DNA of 64,000 bases, from NCBI GenBank assembly GCA_022821545.1, contig JAJEDJ010000034.1:62001-126000 (forward strand), given 5' to 3'. Below, piece by piece: positions 53,557 through 61,374 of the stretch; the first letter of the stretch is position 1, and each line of letters opens with the position of its first letter. The translations under genes were made by a program, and so were the position numbers. The notes beneath the pieces are model-generated. The model had not been told where the DNA came from. It was given only the letters and a program-made list of their open reading frames with translations, and made no database searches. The stretch comes from Caldilineaceae bacterium. Its GTDB lineage: Bacteria > Chloroflexota > Anaerolineae > Caldilineales > Caldilineaceae.

Positions 53557-54357
53557 TCAAGCGGGCGAAAAGTAGCGGATATCGAGCAGCTTCTGGCGGG
53601 TGGCCAAGGATCCGACGTAACCGTCTGGCAAGGCCAGACGGTAAAGGTGGAAGCCCCTCTTGCAGTGGACGCCGCCTTCTTCCCAAGCCGGCTCCTGGTG
53701 ATCGGCAAGCTCCTCCAATTCTAGCTGTCCTGTAAGTAGCTGCAGTCCGACGCCTTCAGCCTTAACAATGGCTTCACGGCGTGTCCATGCCCGCAAGAAC
53801 CTGAGACTTCGTTCAGGTTCAGCCGCACGTTCGAAGTGCTCCAGTTCGCGCGGCGTCAGACTGTAGGATTTCAGCCCGTCGGCAACTGGCGGGGTTCTCA
53901 GCTGTTCAATGTCAATACCTACCGGTTGTTGCAGACAGATCGCAAGTGCCGCCAGTTCACCCGAATCGGAGAGGTTGAACTGAAGGTCCGCGGCGAGTTC
54001 AGGGGCGAGGAAGGGCTTGCCGTGCGGGTTGTATACGAACCTGACATTTTGCGGCTGCTGGTCCACGTAACGGCCGATGATTCGTCGCAGCATGCCGCGT
54101 CGCACGATGAAGCGGCGTGCCGGCAAGTGCGAAGCATGGCGCCCGACCCGCCTCCATTCATCGGCTGACAACACCTCTTCATACCGGGACAGGCGTCTCC
54201 GATCGACGTCCAGGTTCCATGTCCAAACGTGCAGCGCGTCCGCATCCAGTGGCGGCGCGCCGCAAACTGATCTACCCCAGTTCCTCGTTCCGGTCCCGCT
54301 TAAGAGACCGCGCGTCGCCCTTTCCACAGAGGCCCTCCAAATCGCCAGTGCCACCAC
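53557..54357 (-). CDS. 4'-phosphopantetheinyl transferase (Sfp type)
   Basis: 266 residues from the GTG at 54357; a GTG at about 54327 is an alternative and the first 35 residues are outside the usual Sfp domain. The three family motifs are visible: NPHGKPFL then FNLSDSGELAALAI, GIDIEQL (Mg-binding Asp/Glu) and RAWTRREAIVKAEGVGL. The enzyme transfers phosphopantetheine from CoA to carrier proteins of fatty acid, polyketide or peptide synthesis. It overlaps the end of the GT2 gene by 58 nt in another frame and is last in the carotenoid operon, which is unusual: no carrier-protein-dependent synthase is in the window. Confidence 0.85.
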   Translation of the reverse strand: MVALAIWRASVERATRGLLSGTGTRNWGRSVCGAPPLDADALHVWTWNLDVDRRRLSRYEEVLSADEWRRVGRHASHLPARRFIVRRGMLRRIIGRYVDQQPQNVRFVYNPHGKPFLAPELAADLQFNLSDSGELAALAICLQQPVGIDIEQLRTPPVADGLKSYSLTPRELEHFERAAEPERSLRFLRAWTRREAIVKAEGVGLQLLTGQLELEELADHQEPAWEEGGVHCKRGFHLYRLALPDGYVGSLATRQKLLDIRYFSPA

Positions 54358-55430
54358 AGTGACTGGGCGGCGATAGCGGTCATCAGCAACACCGCAACAG
54401 GCAACAGAGGCGCGTCACCGGCGCGTTGGCCCGTGCGCCAGGCCGTCAGGGCGCGAACGAAGATACCGGCGCAGACGAGAAGAAGCGCCCAGTAAGGGTG
54501 CCAGGGAACGGCGGTTCCTGAGAATCCAACTATCAGCAGTCCCCATGGGACCAGGAAGACAACCCAATGAAACACTGTGGCGGCAAGCAGGCCGGCGGTT
54601 CCCCCGAACCCGGCGAGGATATTCTTCGCAAAGCCCTCGCGCACAGTGCGCCAGTCTCGGTACATTCGACAGGTGATGAGCCCATTCGCCTCTGCCATGC
54701 GCAGAGGCAGGCCCGCCCTCTTTGCCCGGCGAGCCAGTCCGATATCATCCAGAATGTTGTCTCGTACCGAGGCGTGGCCTCCCAGCCTGTCATAGGCGGT
54801 TCGCCGCAATGCGATGCACTGGCCATTGGCAGCTGCCAGCAGGGGGAAAGATGTGCGGTGGACCGCGACCGCCGGCAGGTAGGCGTGGATAGCGAAAGCC
54901 ATCAGCGGTACGCAGAGGCGTTCAGGCCAGGACACGGTCTTTTGGCTTGGCATGACGGCAAGCATATCGGCGCCGGAGCGGTCCAGCTCGCACAGCAGAG
55001 CGGCCAGGGCGCGATTGTGCCAGCGCACGTCGGCGTCAGCGAAGATGAGGATCTCTCCACTTGCCTCTCCAGCCAGCTGATGACATGCCCAACTCTTTCC
55101 CAGCCAGCCGCCGGGTATGGGACCGCCTCTGAAGATTCGGAGGCGGTTGTCATTCCCGGAGGCATCCAATGCAGCTCTTTCAGTGCCGTCTTCAGAACCG
55201 TCGTCCAGGATCAGGAGCTCCCAGCAGGGATAGGACTGCTGCAAAATGCTTCTGACCGTTGCTCCAATGACGGCGGCTTCATTTCGCGCCGGAACCAATA
55301 CCGATACGCTGGCGGCGATGCCGGCGGCGTTGCAATCCCGAAGACCGGGAAATGCCGCCAGGTTCGACAGCAGGATCAGTATCATTCCACTGAGCGCGGC
55401 GGAGGCCAGGATAAGAAGCAGAACTGTCAT
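54300..55430 (-). CDS. Family 2 glycosyltransferase of the carotenoid cluster (CruG/CrtQ-like)
   Basis: 376 residues. An N-terminal membrane segment (about 3-24) is followed by the GT-A domain: SVLVPARNEAAVIG, LLILDDGSEDGTE, IPGGWLGKSWACHQLA, FADADVRWH (DxD-type) and the acceptor base region NILDDIGLARRAKRAG. C-terminal membrane segments (about 278-300, 306-325, 344-362) place the active site at the membrane. The GGWLGK and DADV patterns are those of carotenoid glycosyltransferases such as CrtQ and CruG. CruG glycosylates the 2'-hydroxyl of CruF-made carotenoids in cyanobacteria; adjacency to cruF here supports a similar job. The ATG overlaps the plsY stop. Confidence 0.82.
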   Translation of the reverse strand: MTVLLLILASAALSGMILILLSNLAAFPGLRDCNAAGIAASVSVLVPARNEAAVIGATVRSILQQSYPCWELLILDDGSEDGTERAALDASGNDNRLRIFRGGPIPGGWLGKSWACHQLAGEASGEILIFADADVRWHNRALAALLCELDRSGADMLAVMPSQKTVSWPERLCVPLMAFAIHAYLPAVAVHRTSFPLLAAANGQCIALRRTAYDRLGGHASVRDNILDDIGLARRAKRAGLPLRMAEANGLITCRMYRDWRTVREGFAKNILAGFGGTAGLLAATVFHWVVFLVPWGLLIVGFSGTAVPWHPYWALLLVCAGIFVRALTAWRTGQRAGDAPLLPVAVLLMTAIAAQSLWWHWRFGGPLWKGRRAVS

Positions 55431-56014
55431 CTCAGTGCGGGAAGTCGAATCTCAGGACGTTGGGCCAGGTCGAGCCGGTGTTTCCAAGCCAGTATCAGGC
55501 CGTTGCCAATCCAGACGGGCAGAATGGCCCCGAGCGGACCGGTCAACGCCAGGAACGCCAGCAGGCCGCAGAAAGCGCATATCACTGCCCAGCCGTCGAT
55601 AGAAATCGTGAAGTAGGTGAGCAACAGCAGCGCGCCAAAAACGAAGAGGGTACTCCACCCGGTCAAGCCGGCCCAGATGCCGAAGGTGACCGCTACCGCC
55701 TTCCCGCCCTGGAAACGAAGCAAGAATGAGAAAGCGTGGCCTGCTACTGCCGCCAAAGCCGCCCCTGCCAGTGCCGCATCGGGCAGATCCCCGAACCTCT
55801 GCGCGGCGAGCACAGGCAGACAGCCTTTCAGCCCGTCGAGAATAATTACCGCGACGCCCAACGTTCTGCCTCCGGCGCGCATCACATTCGTGCCGCCTGG
55901 ATTGCCGTCACCAAAGTGCCGGATCTCTTTGTCCAGGATAAGACCTCCCAGCCAGACGGAAAAGGGCAAACTGCCGCAAAGGTAGGCAGTCAATATCCAG
56001 AGAATGACATTCAT
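55427..56014 (-). CDS. plsY: Acyl-phosphate glycerol-3-phosphate acyltransferase family
   Basis: 195 residues from the ATG at 56014, overlapping the cruF stop (ATGA); the frame is open upstream but without similarity. Motifs of PlsY are complete: SLPFSVWLGG, FGDGNPGGTNVMRAGG, LDGLKGCLPVL and RFQGGKAVAVTFG. PlsY adds an acyl group from acyl-phosphate to glycerol-3-phosphate in the membrane. Within a carotenoid glycoside operon it may serve normal lipid synthesis or acylate the glycosylated pigment, as separate acyltransferases do in other carotenoid-ester pathways; the second is only an idea. Confidence 0.9.
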   Translation of the reverse strand: MNVILWILTAYLCGSLPFSVWLGGLILDKEIRHFGDGNPGGTNVMRAGGRTLGVAVIILDGLKGCLPVLAAQRFGDLPDAALAGAALAAVAGHAFSFLLRFQGGKAVAVTFGIWAGLTGWSTLFVFGALLLLTYFTISIDGWAVICAFCGLLAFLALTGPLGAILPVWIGNGLILAWKHRLDLAQRPEIRLPALR

Positions 56015-56787
56015 GCGTGAGAGGCGAGCGCTTGCAGCCACGCCAGGGCAACAAAGACGCCCATTCCCATAAATCCGGCTGCAGCCGCGCCGGGCAGTGC
56101 GAAGTACACTCCCAACCCCACCGAGTTCAGCAACCAGACGGTCGTATAGACAAGGAGAAGAGCTTCTACTGGAAGTGACTTGGTTGGAGCGAAGGAAGAA
56201 AGTCCGAAAACGACTGCGGCGGCAACCAGGATCCAGCCAAGGAAGTTGATGATGGGGATCCCGAAGTAGATGCCGGGAGATTCCCATCGCCACAGGTTCC
56301 ACTCCACCATCTGCGGATCAAGAAAGAGGTCCCATGCCGCGAAGGCCAGCCCTGCAGTGAGCGCCGTTGCTGCCCTGTGTATCCACTCGCGGGAGTGGTC
56401 GGCGCCGCGAATTCTCGAACAAATAAGCGTCCCGACAGCCCAGGCGGGGGGTATCATCATCAGCCACGCAACGGGTACCTGTACAGGTACCCCGCCAATT
56501 TGGGGTTGGAGAGCATCCGTATAGGCGTAGTCACCGAATGGCAATCCGGTACTGTGGCCGATGAATTCGGCCAGCCAGGCAGTCGCGACGATGATGAGGC
56601 CGGTACTGAGAGTCACCCGTCCTCTAAAGGCGGGAAACAGCAGGTTGAGAACCAATCCAACCTGAACGAGGACCGAGAGTGACAGCGCAATCAGTAGGGT
56701 AGGCCGATTGCCCAGACGAAGAATGTGGGGAATAAGAACTGTCAGGAACAGCCACAGGCAGTACAGAATTCGACTCGACAGTTTCAT
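56011..56787 (-). CDS. cruF: Carotenoid 1',2'-hydratase family protein (CruF)
   Basis: 258 residues from the ATG at 56787 (GAGGAG 4 nt before the ATG). Seven to eight membrane segments; EFIGHSTGLPFGDYAYTDALQP, PVAWLMMIP and AAWDLFLDPQMVEWNLWRWE are the family signatures. CruF adds water to the psi end of gamma-carotene or lycopene, giving a 1'-hydroxy group. The next genes encode PlsY and a GT2 glycosyltransferase, so the hydroxylated carotenoid is probably glycosylated. The homologous archaeal protein is a bisanhydrobacterioruberin hydratase; the exact end group modified here is inferred. Confidence 0.88.
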   Translation of the reverse strand: MKLSSRILYCLWLFLTVLIPHILRLGNRPTLLIALSLSVLVQVGLVLNLLFPAFRGRVTLSTGLIIVATAWLAEFIGHSTGLPFGDYAYTDALQPQIGGVPVQVPVAWLMMIPPAWAVGTLICSRIRGADHSREWIHRAATALTAGLAFAAWDLFLDPQMVEWNLWRWESPGIYFGIPIINFLGWILVAAAVVFGLSSFAPTKSLPVEALLLVYTTVWLLNSVGLGVYFALPGAAAAGFMGMGVFVALAWLQALASHA

Positions 56788-56873
56788 CTGACTCCTCAAC
56801 GCGTTGAGAAGCAGGACTGTTTTCGCGGGATACGATCCCAATGGGTCGCAGCCGGAAAACCGCCGGAGGCAGC

Positions 56874-57656
56874 TCATTGGCAGATTTCACCCTCCCCCAA
56901 CAGGAATGCCAGAAGCCGTGTCAGCCACGAACATCGCGGCGTCGCTTGTCCGGCTTCAGCAGCATCTGACTGTGAAGGCTCAGACTCTTGGGTAAGTTCG
57001 GCGGCGGAGGTAACAGCACTGTCGGATTCAGCCGACGGCTGCAATGTCACCGGCGTCCAATACTCTTTCAGCTTGCGGGCAAAGGCCGGGTCTCCCCCTT
57101 GAACCTCCCGCTGTCCGACAACGAGAGTATACCGGCCCACCGATCCCTGGGGATCCCAGACTACTACCTTGACTTCGCCTTGGACAGGGAAGGTGATTCG
57201 ACGGCGTTGCCGCTGCCAGTAGGCAGTGCGGCTGAATGGCTCGAAAAAGATCGTAGCGTCTGTCGCCTCCAACACGACGGCTCCTTCTTGGCCTGCGACG
57301 AGCGGGAGGGCATCGGTTGGCAGACCTGAGGTTGAATCTCCTTCCAGTCCGGCGGCAACTACGCCAATGTAGGGCGCGAACTGATCCTGCCCCTCGATCT
57401 GAGGGATGGTCATGCCGATTTCAACGGTCTGTCTGGCGGAAACGCTGAATGCAAAGAAATCGACGTCTCCGGGCCTTTCCAGGGTACCAAACAGCGCCGT
57501 TGATATTTCAGGAGCGCTGACCAACTTCGGCGTGCTGGCGGTAGTATCCGTGTCCTCAAAAAAGGGTTGATGTGCCAGGGCGGCTTCAAATGCAAATAGG
57601 ACGCAAAACACGGTCAACAGCAAGATGATAAATCGAGGCGCGGCTGCTGGATTCAT
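56874..57656 (-). CDS. Secreted PPC-like domain protein inside the carotenoid operon
   Basis: 260 residues from the ATG at 57656 (AGGAGGGCGG upstream; the ATG overlaps the lycopene cyclase stop, ATGA). A signal peptide ends near EAALAHQP. Residues about 50-110 resemble a pre-peptidase C-terminal (PPC) beta domain: FGTLERPGDVDFFAFSVSAR and VEIGMTIPQI. A second beta region with VVLEATDATIFF and VVVWDPQGSVGRYTLVVGQ follows. The tail is Ser/Glu-rich and ends in a hydrophobic segment WLTRLLAFLLGEG, possibly an anchor. No enzyme motif is seen. Coupling to lycopene cyclase suggests a role at the outer surface, perhaps in pigment-rich membrane, but this is not shown. Confidence 0.75.
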   Translation of the reverse strand: MNPAAAPRFIILLLTVFCVLFAFEAALAHQPFFEDTDTTASTPKLVSAPEISTALFGTLERPGDVDFFAFSVSARQTVEIGMTIPQIEGQDQFAPYIGVVAAGLEGDSTSGLPTDALPLVAGQEGAVVLEATDATIFFEPFSRTAYWQRQRRRITFPVQGEVKVVVWDPQGSVGRYTLVVGQREVQGGDPAFARKLKEYWTPVTLQPSAESDSAVTSAAELTQESEPSQSDAAEAGQATPRCSWLTRLLAFLLGEGEICQ

Positions 57657-58444
57657 TCCGCCCTCCTGAAGCTGGTCGGGATCCATCGGGCCCGTTGGTG
57701 GCTCTGTCTGGCGATCACCAGAGTCACGCCAAACACGACCATCGCTGTCGTTAAGAGAAAGAAAATGAACTCTTCCAGCGGAAGAATCCCGCCGAGTGCG
57801 AATCCGAGCGACTGCTGAGGGTCAATCGTCCATGTACCGGAGTGGATGGCAACGGCGTCCGCCAGGGACAAATAGAGAGTTCCCAACAGAACAGTCCACA
57901 GGACTTGCCGCCGGTAGTGCCAGAGAATGTCGGCGCCGAAAACCAGCTGAACCGAGAGAGGTACTATCCCCCAAGCCAGTTCCAGCCCCAGGTACGTGCT
58001 CTGAGGGCTTCCTGCGCCCAGCAAGAACAAGGCATACAGCCAGATGGCAAGAGTCAACCCGGCTGAACCCAGGCGAAGCCGGGGATGCGAACGAAAGGAA
58101 TGGTCTGACGGCGGCAACAGGCGTGCCGCCGCCAGAAGGGCCAGGCTCAGGAGCGCTGTCTGTCCCGCAAAGAACAGGTATTCCTCGAGCGGCACATAGC
58201 CGAAAGTGATGCCAAGTACGAGGTCCGGATCGTACCACCAGACCTTGGTAGCGACGAGATAGTTGTCCCAGGGCGACGTGTAGAGTAGTGCCAGCAGCAC
58301 ATGGGCCCCGACAACTGGAGTGGCAGGCCATGCCCGCAGCGAAGAGGGAAGCGGCGACCCTTGTCTGCGAAGCAACCAGTTCAAGAATGCGAAGAAGAGG
58401 GCGGGAATGCAGATGAAGAGCGAAAGGAATGCTAGGTAGGCCAT
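57653..58444 (-). CDS. Fused heterodimer-type lycopene cyclase (CrtYc-CrtYd domains)
   Basis: 263 residues with about seven membrane segments. The duplicated motif PLEEYLFF (near residue 85) and PLEEFIFF (near 225) shows two fused cyclase domains, as in fungal and archaeal CrtY-type and in Myxococcus/actinobacterial CrtYc-CrtYd pairs. WWYDPDLVLG and SGTWTIDPQQSLG are further conserved elements. The enzyme closes one or both psi ends of lycopene to beta-rings without oxidising a cofactor. With CruF on the other end the product would be a gamma-carotene type. The start has only a weak AGGCGAG site; the gene lies 103 bp downstream of the regulator. Confidence 0.9.
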   Translation of the reverse strand: MAYLAFLSLFICIPALFFAFLNWLLRRQGSPLPSSLRAWPATPVVGAHVLLALLYTSPWDNYLVATKVWWYDPDLVLGITFGYVPLEEYLFFAGQTALLSLALLAAARLLPPSDHSFRSHPRLRLGSAGLTLAIWLYALFLLGAGSPQSTYLGLELAWGIVPLSVQLVFGADILWHYRRQVLWTVLLGTLYLSLADAVAIHSGTWTIDPQQSLGFALGGILPLEEFIFFLLTTAMVVFGVTLVIARQSHQRARWIPTSFRRAE

Positions 58445-58547: not shown

Positions 58548-59915
58548 CTAGCTCTCGCTGTAACTCTGCCGCACGTCCTTGCCAAGAGTCTCCAGCATGC
58601 AGACGATGGGTTCGCCTTCGACGCCCAGAACCGCCCGGACTGCAAATATGCCCAGACTCAGATACTCTTCCAGGATCGACAGAGGTATGTTGCGGGACTC
58701 CAGAAAGGTACAAATCCATTCAGCTTCCAAAGAGACCAGCGATGGGTCGCCCAAACGCAGCGCTGACATCATTGCGCTGTTGATGCTGTAGAATGGCCGT
58801 CCCAGCCTTGCCCATTCGGGAGGCGTTCCCCGCTCTGCGCCTAAGACAAGCGCCGAGATTCTGTGCAGGTTCGCCCGATAGCTGGAAATCAGGTCATCGA
58901 ATCTGTTGACAGGAGGCGCTGCGCTGGCCAGGTCGCCTGCTCTCGACAGTAAGGATTCGACTCTGCTTCCGGCCTGAAGCAGATCGGGCCCCAGGAAATC
59001 TCCGGGTACATTGCTCCGGATAACTTCAGAGAGATTGAATATGCGTCCTCCAAATGCAACGGGAACACCTTGCAGGTTTATCAACTCGCTCATATCCAGC
59101 AGACTCCCCGCTGACCGAAGCTGCTGGGAAACGAGTACGACGAGATCGGGTTGGATTCCTGATAGCGTTATTTCCATCTCGCTCTGTGAGAGATTCTCTC
59201 CCAGAAAGACGGTCCCAAACCCCTTCCGCTTGAGGATGAGTTGAAGAATCGCCAAGCCGAAAGTGTGACTCTCTCCGTGCGGACACGCCAGCAGTACGAG
59301 ACCGGGCCTGGTGGGCGGAGGGCAAGCGCCCAGCAGGATCTTGATGCTCTGCATTGCCTCGGAGGCGGCAAAGGCAACTTGCTGTGTAGTTGCTCTGCCG
59401 GCATGCCAGTCCTCTCCTAACTGGCGAAGTCCTCTGCAGAGCACGTGAAGGCAAACGGTTTCGACAGGGAAAAGGGCAAATGCCTGGGAAAGAATGCGCT
59501 GTGCCCCAAATTCATCGAACGCAGTGCAGGCTGACGTCCACTCAATGCAAGCAACTGAAATCTGGTCGTCGACAAAACTGCTTTCTGCGGCTTCGATAAG
59601 CGCGGCTTCCGACCAGAGGTTTCCATAAGCATAAGGGTCGGGAGCCGGCGCCTGCTCCTGGAGAGGGTCTCGCCCTTCACTCTCCAATATCTGCCAGCGT
59701 TCGGCGGCGCGGCTGATACTGAGGCCTTCCAACCGGCGCTGATTCAACCAACGGAGAGTTTCGATATCACGCCGTGAGTAGATGCGGTGTCCGCCGGAAC
59801 TGCGTGCCGGCCTGGGAATACCGTATCGGCGTTCCCAGGCCCGTAGCGTTTCCGCTTTAATGCCCGTCTCTCGGACAACGGCTTTCAGATTGAAGGACGG
59901 CGTTTTCGTACTCAC
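58548..59915 (-). CDS. MerR/B12-binding regulator (CarH/LitR-like) with altered cap motif
   Basis: 455 residues, starting GTG at 59915. The MerR helix-turn-helix covers about 8-75 (AETLRAWERRYGIPRPARSSGGHRIYS). A helical cap domain (about 100-195) and a Rossmann B12-binding domain (about 203-320) follow; E215-S-H217-T-F-G220 fits the E-x-H-x-x-G cobalamin motif of CarH. In Thermus CarH the cap motif is W-x9-E-H; here W170 is kept (GEDWHAGRATTQQVA) but the Glu-His pair is V180-A181. A further C-terminal domain of about 130 residues with no recognised fold is extra. CarH-type proteins repress carotenoid genes in the dark and release DNA on light-driven cobalamin cleavage; light response here is uncertain. 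Confidence 0.88.
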   Translation of the reverse strand: MSTKTPSFNLKAVVRETGIKAETLRAWERRYGIPRPARSSGGHRIYSRRDIETLRWLNQRRLEGLSISRAAERWQILESEGRDPLQEQAPAPDPYAYGNLWSEAALIEAAESSFVDDQISVACIEWTSACTAFDEFGAQRILSQAFALFPVETVCLHVLCRGLRQLGEDWHAGRATTQQVAFAASEAMQSIKILLGACPPPTRPGLVLLACPHGESHTFGLAILQLILKRKGFGTVFLGENLSQSEMEITLSGIQPDLVVLVSQQLRSAGSLLDMSELINLQGVPVAFGGRIFNLSEVIRSNVPGDFLGPDLLQAGSRVESLLSRAGDLASAAPPVNRFDDLISSYRANLHRISALVLGAERGTPPEWARLGRPFYSINSAMMSALRLGDPSLVSLEAEWICTFLESRNIPLSILEEYLSLGIFAVRAVLGVEGEPIVCMLETLGKDVRQSYSES

Positions 59916-59955
59916 TTGTACATGTACTCCTTCGTACCTGTACGCTGCGTTACCT
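59908..59955. promoter_or_regulatory. Three tandem 16-bp GTAC repeats, candidate operator of the B12 regulator
   Basis: Units GTACTCACTTGTACAT (59908-59923), GTACTCCTTCGTACCT (59924-59939) and GTACGCTGCGTTACCT (59940-59955) follow head to tail. GTAC starts at 59908, 59918, 59924, 59934 and 59940, and a TTAC at 59950, giving a strict 10/6/10/6/10 spacing. The block overlaps the GTG start of the regulator gene and the ribosome site (AAGGAG on the minus strand), and lies just downstream of its likely promoter, so binding would block the gene's own expression. MerR/CarH proteins are known to bind tandem repeats, which supports the call. Confidence 0.7.
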
Positions 59956-60016: not shown

Positions 60017-60283
60017 ATTACAAATGCTCAACGTCTGCATACCAGTCGTGTAGTTTTCGCCCGCTGCCCTATTATATGCAAAATCTATACAATGTATCAA
60101 AGAATGGTTTGCAGGAATTGCCACTGTCAGGATTGTGGGTTATACTCAATTCCGGGCCAAGAAAAGCGAACGAAACTACACCCAATCATCTCTATCCAGG
60201 ATACACACAGGGCTGCCCGCGCCTTCCTTGTACGGGCAAAAGAAGCAAGTCGAACGGGTAGACTATCGAAAAGCGGAGGTCCC

Positions 60284-60312
60284 TTGACTTGAGTGGCCTG
60301 GTACAGTACTTT
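60284..60312 (+). promoter_or_regulatory. Promoter of crtB overlapped by a GTAC element
   Basis: TTGACT (60284-60289), 17-bp spacer, TACTTT (60307-60312). GTACAGTAC (60301-60309) covers the -10, and CTGTAT follows at 60317. This resembles the GTAC elements near the regulator, so the same protein may control crtB, although the spacing differs from the tandem block. Confidence 0.5.
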
Positions 60313-60381
60313 AGGACTGTATGGGTTGTGATCGACTGATTAGGCGTTAAAGGGATCTTTTCTGCGAGCAAAGGCGCTCCA

Positions 60382-61374
60382 ATGACTCTGAAAATTCGCG
60401 ACTGGGAGCGTCCTCTGCTCTCACGCGCCTATGAAGCCGGGCAGGTGTATGGTCCAATACCGCTTCCCGATGTCGGGGACAAAAAGGAGTTGGACAGGGC
60501 CTACAACTTCTGTGAAGCGGTTACTGCGGCAAACAGCCGTTCCTTCTTTACTGCCTCTCGCTTTCTCCCAAAGGAGAAGCGGCGTTCAGTGCGTGCCCTC
60601 TACGCATTTTGTCGCAAGAGTGATGACATAGTCGACAGGCCGCCCAGTGGAAGCGGCGACCCCGCTGCCGTGCGTGAAGCGCTTGCATCCTGGCAGTCGC
60701 GTTCACTCACGCAGAAGGCCGACCATAAGGATCCCGTCGCCCTGGCCTGGTCTGACGCTCGGCGGCAGTATGGTATTCCGCCGCGCTACGCCGAGCAGCT
60801 CATCCAGGGCGTTGCCCGGGACATAACGGAAAGCCGCTACCAGACATTCGCCGACCTGACCAGCTATTGCTACGGAGTAGCTGCAACAGTTGGGCTGATG
60901 AGTATGCACATCATTGGCTTTTCCGGAATTGAAGCCATTCCCTATGCGCTGAAATTGGGCGTGGCGCTGCAGTTGACGAATGTGCTGAGAGATGTGGGCG
61001 AGGACTGGGAGGCCGGGCGGCTCTACCTTCCCCTAGACGACCTGCGCAAATTCGGCCTCGACGAAATGGACGTAGAGGCTGGCGTCGTTGACGATCGCTG
61101 GCGGGCGTTTATGCGTTTTCAGATTGGCCGTACTCGTCAACTTTATAGCGAAGCTTGGCCTGGTATCGCGTTAATTCACGCCGACGGCCGTTTCGCAATC
61201 GCCGCCGCGGCTGACCTCTACCGTGCCATTCTCACTGATATCGAAGCGCACGACTACGATGTCTTCTCGCGGCGGGCCCATGTCAATGCGTGGGGCAAGC
61301 TGAGGCGGCTTCCGGCGATCTGGTGGAGCTGCAAGACATTACGTGCTCCAGTGACGAACAGCCGGACAGAGTAA
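60382..61374 (+). CDS. crtB: Phytoene synthase
   Basis: 330 residues. The two Asp-rich motifs are clear: [12 protein letters not shown] and [18 protein letters not shown]. They bind Mg and the diphosphates of two geranylgeranyl-diphosphate molecules, which are joined to phytoene. [11 protein letters not shown] and [10 protein letters not shown] are typical C-terminal elements. AAAGG precedes the ATG. It is the first committed gene of the C40 pathway and is divergent from the regulator and modification operon. The desaturase gene (crtI or crtP/Q) is not in the window, so lycopene must be made by genes elsewhere. Confidence 0.94.

Follow-up and report, generated by a model that had tools for sequence, protein, structure and literature searches.

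The 64,000-nucleotide window analyzed here, part of a Caldilineaceae bacterium contig, encodes on its reverse strand a 455-residue regulator (58548..59915, GTG start) in which a MerR domain is followed by a B12-binding domain and a photoglobin domain. Given its neighbors, the gene does head a carotenoid operon, as the initial annotation held: lycopene cyclase, CruF-like and family 2 glycosyltransferase genes and a divergent crtB were all found. The gene immediately downstream encodes lycopene cyclase (57653..58444) and is followed on the same strand by a gene for a conserved, probably exported protein of 270 aa that belongs to no Pfam or NCBIfam family (56874..57686), a gene of the CruF-like carotenoid hydratase family (56011..56877; Caroten_synth, 1e-36), an open reading frame for a PlsY-type acyltransferase whose true start is probably further in (55427..56302), a CruG/HpnB-like glycosyltransferase of family 2 (54300..55430) and a gene of the 4'-phosphopantetheinyl transferase superfamily (53557..54357), with which the syntenic block ends. 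On the forward strand, crtB (phytoene synthase) is encoded divergently at 60382..61374. The source genome (G000, 4.87 Mb) contains one copy of the regulator gene; two further loci, L002 and L003, examined as candidate second CarH copies among the B12-binding-domain matches, appear from their sequences to encode ordinary methyltransferase corrinoid proteins.

As far as the contigs extend, the gene order in the genus is divergent crtB, regulator, lycopene cyclase, the 270-aa gene, the CruF-like gene or a gap, PlsY, glycosyltransferase and phosphopantetheinyl transferase. The 270-aa gene adjoins the regulator throughout the genus and also in two Caldilineaceae relatives (L068 and L069; 47-50% identity). 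In four genus members (L156, L157, L158 and L161), no CruF was recognized, although PlsY and the 270-aa gene are still separated by a gap of similar size; CruF is replaced or strongly diverged there. In one complete genome of the genus (G004), the block comprising regulator, lycopene cyclase, CruF, PlsY and glycosyltransferase is absent, with a scrap of the phosphopantetheinyl transferase gene left and crtB retained (L175, 8000-10850), which amounts to a natural deletion; a whole-genome search found no lycopene cyclase there. Given that this genome lost the operon along with the regulator while crtB stayed, the regulator is linked to its own operon and not to crtB. In another genus member (G012), the operon is lost and crtB is missing as well.

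The MerR DNA-binding domain occupies residues 8-76 (59688..59894; this and all other features within the gene are on the reverse strand), with a MerR_1 match at residues 9-72 (3e-13), and its recognition helix, RAWERRYG, has the R-x-W-E-R-R-Y pattern of CarH and CarA. The cobalamin domain, delimited on the basis of Pfam matches and the predicted structure, consists of a four-helix bundle (residues 116-198, 59322..59570; B12-binding_2 match at residues 128-190) and a Rossmann part (residues 204-330, 58926..59306). The Pfam B12-binding match to the latter, at residues 206-306, scores 28.8 bits, below the curated cut-off of 32.1, and alignments make the region unambiguous; this part is modeled with a pLDDT over 90, and the protein does not have the layout of class II LitR (four-helix bundle only). 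The best PDB match in a phmmer search is TtCarH/LitR (2e-23), followed by photocobilins, AerR and methionine synthase; against the NCBIfam CarH model, NF052513, the regulator scores 108.8 bits, the cut-off being 400.

The pocket reads G-E-D-W170-H-x8-V180-A181, plus E215-S-H217-x-x-G220. The cap Trp W170 and the lower-ligand residues E215, H217 and G220 (59256..59273) are seen in the alignment, as the initial annotation claimed, and both the E/D-x-H-x-x-G motif and the GG of CarH (GG289-290) are present. Next to W170, H171 aligns with H132 of TtCarH, the upper ligand of the light state (PMC10442372); W170 and H171 together span 59403..59408. At the place of the Glu-His pair of the relatives, the regulator has V180-A181 (59373..59378), so that the Wx9EH of CarH becomes W-x9-V-A; this reading, likewise made in the initial annotation, holds in alignments to TtCarH and to 100 long forms (defined below). 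A Glu-His pair hidden by an alignment gap is ruled out, the alignment to TtCarH (PDB 3WHP/5C8D) being gap-free through the motif. The SignatureFinder signature of light-responsive cobalamin domains comprises GxxW, EH, GxxH and GxxxP (PMC11796333); GxxW and GxxH are present in the regulator, whereas EH and GxxxP are absent, the latter position reading G239-E-N-L-S243 (59187..59201). The Pro of GxxxP is retained in 6 of the 15 genus members and lost in 9, and P243 is found in 82 of 85 proteins outside the genus.

Given the absence of the Glu-His pair from a corrinoid-type MerR protein that heads a carotenoid operon, a role as a classical light sensor of the CarH kind is unlikely for the regulator. 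A modified version, in which the protein still senses light through AdoCbl (adenosylcobalamin), with V180/S181 and the co-changed Q186/Q189 as an alternative adenosyl pocket, also appears quite improbable. The carotenoid operon setting, the retained Trp and lower His and the co-changed helix are compatible with it, CtMerR and photocobilins show that the light chemistry tolerates variation around H132, and every one of the 17 genus genomes encodes an adenosyltransferase (PF01923), so that cobalamin is handled and AdoCbl can be made. However, every CarH homologue studied is reported to conserve Wx9EH, for which experiments have demonstrated a role in the binding of AdoCbl (PMC8156234), HaAI-2E, which lacks the light signature, bound OHCbl only, and more than the Glu-His pair is gone, given the losses of GxxxP in the genus. 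As far as sequence alone can tell, V-A/S pockets might still accept AdoCbl.

A search of 120 related genomes yielded a match in 56. Long forms are those that share the C-terminal domain of the regulator, and short forms stop after the B12 domain; the alignment consists of 100 distinct long forms of the class Anaerolineae, 85 from outside the genus and 15 from within. The family belongs to Anaerolineae, judging from its named loci (Litorilinea, Promineifilum, Thermoflexus, Caldilineaceae and others); long forms outside the genus also frequently adjoin crtB, and MerR-photoglobin regulators, as predicted from sequence, are widespread in this class, often next to that gene. The pattern W..EH..H217 is present in all 85 long forms outside the genus, as is the photocobilin version of the motif, W-(9/10)x-EH, which the regulator lacks. 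Within the genus, V180 is found in 15/15 genes, and residue 181 is Ala, Ser or Thr in 14 and His in one (L017, 51% identical to the regulator, which reads V-H); a second search of the 17 genus genomes recovered the same 15 genes. Given that the pair is universal outside the genus and lost throughout it, the pattern is far from chance and no sequencing artefact.

In the phylogenetic tree, the 15 genus genes form a single clade (SH-aLRT 100) that is nested within the EH-bearing forms and adjoins Caldilineaceae relatives (98), with L017 as the earliest branch. Given that the genus is one clade inside an EH-bearing family, the loss of the Glu-His pair is derived and was probably stepwise; in the simplest history, Glu would have been lost on the genus stem and His after the divergence of L017.

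The initial annotation also pointed to about 130 extra residues at the C-terminus. The extension, of about 125 residues, is present, but its nature was missed: profile alignment and structure comparison identify it as a photoglobin (phycobiliprotein-like) domain at residues 338-450 (58566..58904). By sequence alone, nothing credible was found for this domain, either in Pfam or with a domain-only profile against the PDB; the full-length profile aligns on through the photocobilin globin domain. The AlphaFold2 model of the regulator, built with 65 sequences, has a pLDDT of 91.4, and for residues 114-455 of this model the best PDB structure matches are the photocobilins 8J2X and 8J2W (VIA Z 30.8, rmsd 2.4-2.5 over 319-327 residues), with 8J2Y at Z 29.7; CarH cobalamin domains score about 22 and their matches end near residue 329. 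Modeled alone, the C-terminal domain has five helices (pLDDT 90.6) and matches allophycocyanins, the biliverdin-binding smURFP, the ApcE bilin domain and 8J2X (Z 12.8, rmsd 2.5 over 118 residues), a Z value that is moderate for a helical domain, the strong evidence being the joint match with the B12 domain. Given this joint match to photocobilins, the extension is a photoglobin domain, and photocobilins, not CarH, are the closest solved relatives of the regulator.

The photocobilins SasPcob and AbDPcob (PDB 8J2W, 8J2X, 8J2Y; PMC10979010) have the same cobalamin-then-photoglobin order and packing (Z 30.8, rmsd 2.4 over 319 residues) and share with the regulator GxxW, the lower-ligand His and Trp296 (W400 here); unlike them, the regulator has a MerR domain in front, no EH, no equivalent of Asp270 and no heme oxygenase found in its genome. 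In SasPcob, Trp296 contacts ring D of the bilin and forms a hydrogen bond with the corrin ring (PMC10979010), and W400 is retained in all 15 genus members and in 82 of the 85 others. For Asp270, which anchors the bilin in SasPcob, the regulator offers no counterpart, having no acidic residue at 368-389, and across the family alignment there is neither a conserved acidic residue in this region nor a conserved Cys. A search for heme oxygenase PF01126, with a control that was positive in 3 of 14 known genomes, found none in the 47 genomes covered, among which are all 17 genus genomes. Because both an Asp270 counterpart and a PF01126 heme oxygenase were not found, the latter being indirect evidence, bilin binding by the regulator is doubtful, and the photoglobin domain may serve structurally. 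A takeover of light sensing by the photoglobin after the cobalamin pocket lost adenosyl could account for the clear phycobiliprotein-like fold beside the corrin site and for the retention of W400, but these same absences, together with the finding that BV alone gave no photoresponse in SasPcob, make it very improbable.

Estimates of dN/dS for close genus pairs, obtained by an unrefined counting method, are 0.10-0.25 for the whole gene, 0.05-0.25 for the four-helix bundle, 0.06-0.28 for the C-terminal domain and 0-0.13 for the DNA-binding domain, similar to those of EH-bearing pairs; the pocket helices are under purifying selection. The considerable length of the stem branch leading to the genus (0.74 changes per site) and the loss of the operon in two genus members could be read as signs that the regulator is decaying into a pseudogene, but the low dN/dS of the gene and of its four-helix bundle, the intact gene in 15 of 15 cases, the conserved synteny and a start-site element that is invariant in 14 genes render this hardly credible. 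Nine positions that are conserved in EH forms are altered in the genus (45, 71, 180, 181, 186, 189, 222, 263 and 422), four of which, 180, 181, 186 and 189, are on the EH (adenosyl) helix. The corrin-site residues W170, E215, H217, G232, G289 and G290 are retained in all 15 genus members, as is P199, which, like G232, was matched by numbering to the CarH dimer-dimer interface.

Residue 171 is His in 13 of the 15 genus members compared with 7 of 85 elsewhere, where Tyr dominates; in two genus members it is replaced by Leu, so that a fixed bis-His state is not general. TtCarH His132 becomes the upper ligand after light, and CarH uses this ligand switch only after illumination (PMC10442372). Only tentatively, we put forward the idea that evolution converted the photoreceptor into a sensor of redox or oxygen that works through cobalamin independently of light; with adenosyl gone, an H171-cobalt-H217 ligand switch would be the resting signal mechanism of a DNA-binding repressor.

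Immediately before the start codon, the inverted repeat GTACAGGTAC-GAAGGA-GTACATGTAC surrounds the ribosome-binding site (59918..59943, reverse strand). In the 14 V-[AST] genes it is invariant, reading GTACAnGTAC-N6-GTACnTGTAC, and its spacing to the start codon is constant; a pattern search found it to be unique in its own genome, and it is absent from all other genes of the family, including L017. The RNA of the palindrome can fold as a hairpin with the Shine-Dalgarno sequence in the loop (z -2.7, no compensatory support). A second palindrome inside the cruF gene, at 56475-56490, was probably produced by codon chance. Further upstream, a consensus scan detected a promoter-like TTGATA-N18-TATAAT directed at the regulator (60071..60100, reverse strand; 11/12 matches), inside which, on the forward strand, lies a degenerate direct repeat of the CarH type, TATGCA-N5-TATACA (60071..60092; 7/8 positions, weak by itself). 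In six V-[AST] relatives within the genus, the pattern of the direct-repeat operator (11-bp TnnACA) is matched at 8/8 positions on the crtB strand. Upstream of EH-bearing genes, the 11-bp TnnACA repeat occurs in 36 of 83 regions compared with 0.93 expected, the maximum in 100 shuffles being 4, and period 11 alone stands out. L017 retains the direct repeat, and where the gap can be read, most genus members still have a direct-repeat-like element, located 155-783 bp upstream and on the opposite strand. A clean operator switch from direct repeat to palindrome is weakened by these persisting elements, and the claim is limited to the GTAC palindrome being new and its presence coinciding with His loss. 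Given the direct-repeat-like element in the crtB-regulator gap of most genus members, CarH-style DNA binding may persist. At 60283-60321, crtB has a conserved promoter-like element of its own (CTTGACT...AGTATTTTGGGACTGTA); the GTAC palindrome is missing from it, and a different regulator may operate at this site.

Compared with known systems, class I CarH/LitR (TtCarH, PDB 5C8D; PMC8156234) shares with the regulator the MerR and cobalamin domains, W170, H171 (H132), H217 (H177), the Gly/Pro of the dimer-dimer interface and the carotenoid operon, whereas the regulator lacks EH and GxxxP and has the extra photoglobin. CarH itself forms an AdoCbl-dependent tetramer, which dissociates in the light. 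AerR/PpaA of purple bacteria (PDB 7TE2; PMC9144470) has the Trp cap over the upper face and the lower-ligand His, as in the regulator, but contains no DNA-binding domain and works on CrtJ; AerR binds cobalamin with -OH or other non-adenosyl upper ligands and has no adenosyl requirement (PMC9144470). CarA of Myxococcus xanthus (PMC9304148) is a paralogue of the photoreceptor CarH with a broken Wx9EH, and both CarA and the regulator keep the MerR domain and the B12 motif; at 288 residues, CarA is too short for a photoglobin.

CarA also provides the model for the main rival explanation, a B12-independent repressor in which the cobalamin domain is a dimerization scaffold and another protein relieves repression. 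Myxococcus CarA arose from CarH via partial loss of Wx9EH and is B12-independent (PMC9304148, PMC8156234), and a palindromic site fits a dimeric MerR protein better than the CarH tetramer on direct repeats (PMC8156234). The pattern of loss is the opposite, however: CarA lost the Trp and flanking residues and kept EH, whereas the regulator kept the Trp and lost EH. Moreover, the Trp, the lower His, the GG motif and the globin-corrin contact Trp, all kept in 15/15 genus members, would not be needed by a mere scaffold, and no antirepressor candidate was identified. We consider a CarA-like repressor unlikely, if worth keeping in view.

Taken together, the alignments, the tree and the structure models show the regulator to be a genus-specific descendant of a MerR - cobalamin-domain - photoglobin family that is often found next to carotenoid genes in Anaerolineae and whose other members keep the full AdoCbl light-switch pocket. 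Given that the Glu-His pair of this pocket is lost yet the gene is kept by selection, the regulator probably senses something other than the AdoCbl light reaction; we infer that this would be another corrinoid form or some other signal, as favored by the conserved W170, H217, GG289-290 and W400 and by purifying selection. With moderate confidence, we interpret the protein as once having been a B12 light switch; it would still bind a corrinoid, would operate without AdoCbl photolysis and would autoregulate the carotenoid operon. Under this scenario, the corrinoid would be bound base-off, with H217 below and the W170 cap above, and a small upper ligand (water/hydroxide, methyl or H171) would replace adenosyl, so that no CarH-type light-driven loss of adenosyl would occur. 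The main function of the regulator would be autoregulatory repression of the carotenoid-modification operon to which it belongs, via the palindrome at the ribosome-binding site, its putative target. Like that of AerR-type proteins, its output would follow the status of cobalamin or redox rather than AdoCbl photolysis.

Neither the individual modules (MerR, B12 and photoglobin) nor their combination goes beyond what is known, fusions of HTH and bilin domains to cobalamin domains having been reported; the literature searched yielded no case of a whole genus that lacks the Glu-His pair, includes an intermediate and is under selection. The family amounts to a natural experiment on the disabling and reuse of a B12 photoreceptor, in three states: the EH-bearing sister group, the V-H intermediate and the 14 members in which the conversion is complete and selection still acts. 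Ligand choice across these states would reveal the residues on which the light-switch role of adenosylcobalamin depends, and the comparison would also show what else a cobalamin-DNA regulator can sense.

Among the short forms, two CarH-type homologues (L061 and L062, from genomes G018 and G040) have the Trp, EH and lower-ligand His all degraded, apparently a second, independent loss of the B12 site. In Thermanaerothrix, two short CarH-type genes, L135 and L138, are arranged in tandem and possibly represent a CarA/CarH-like pair.
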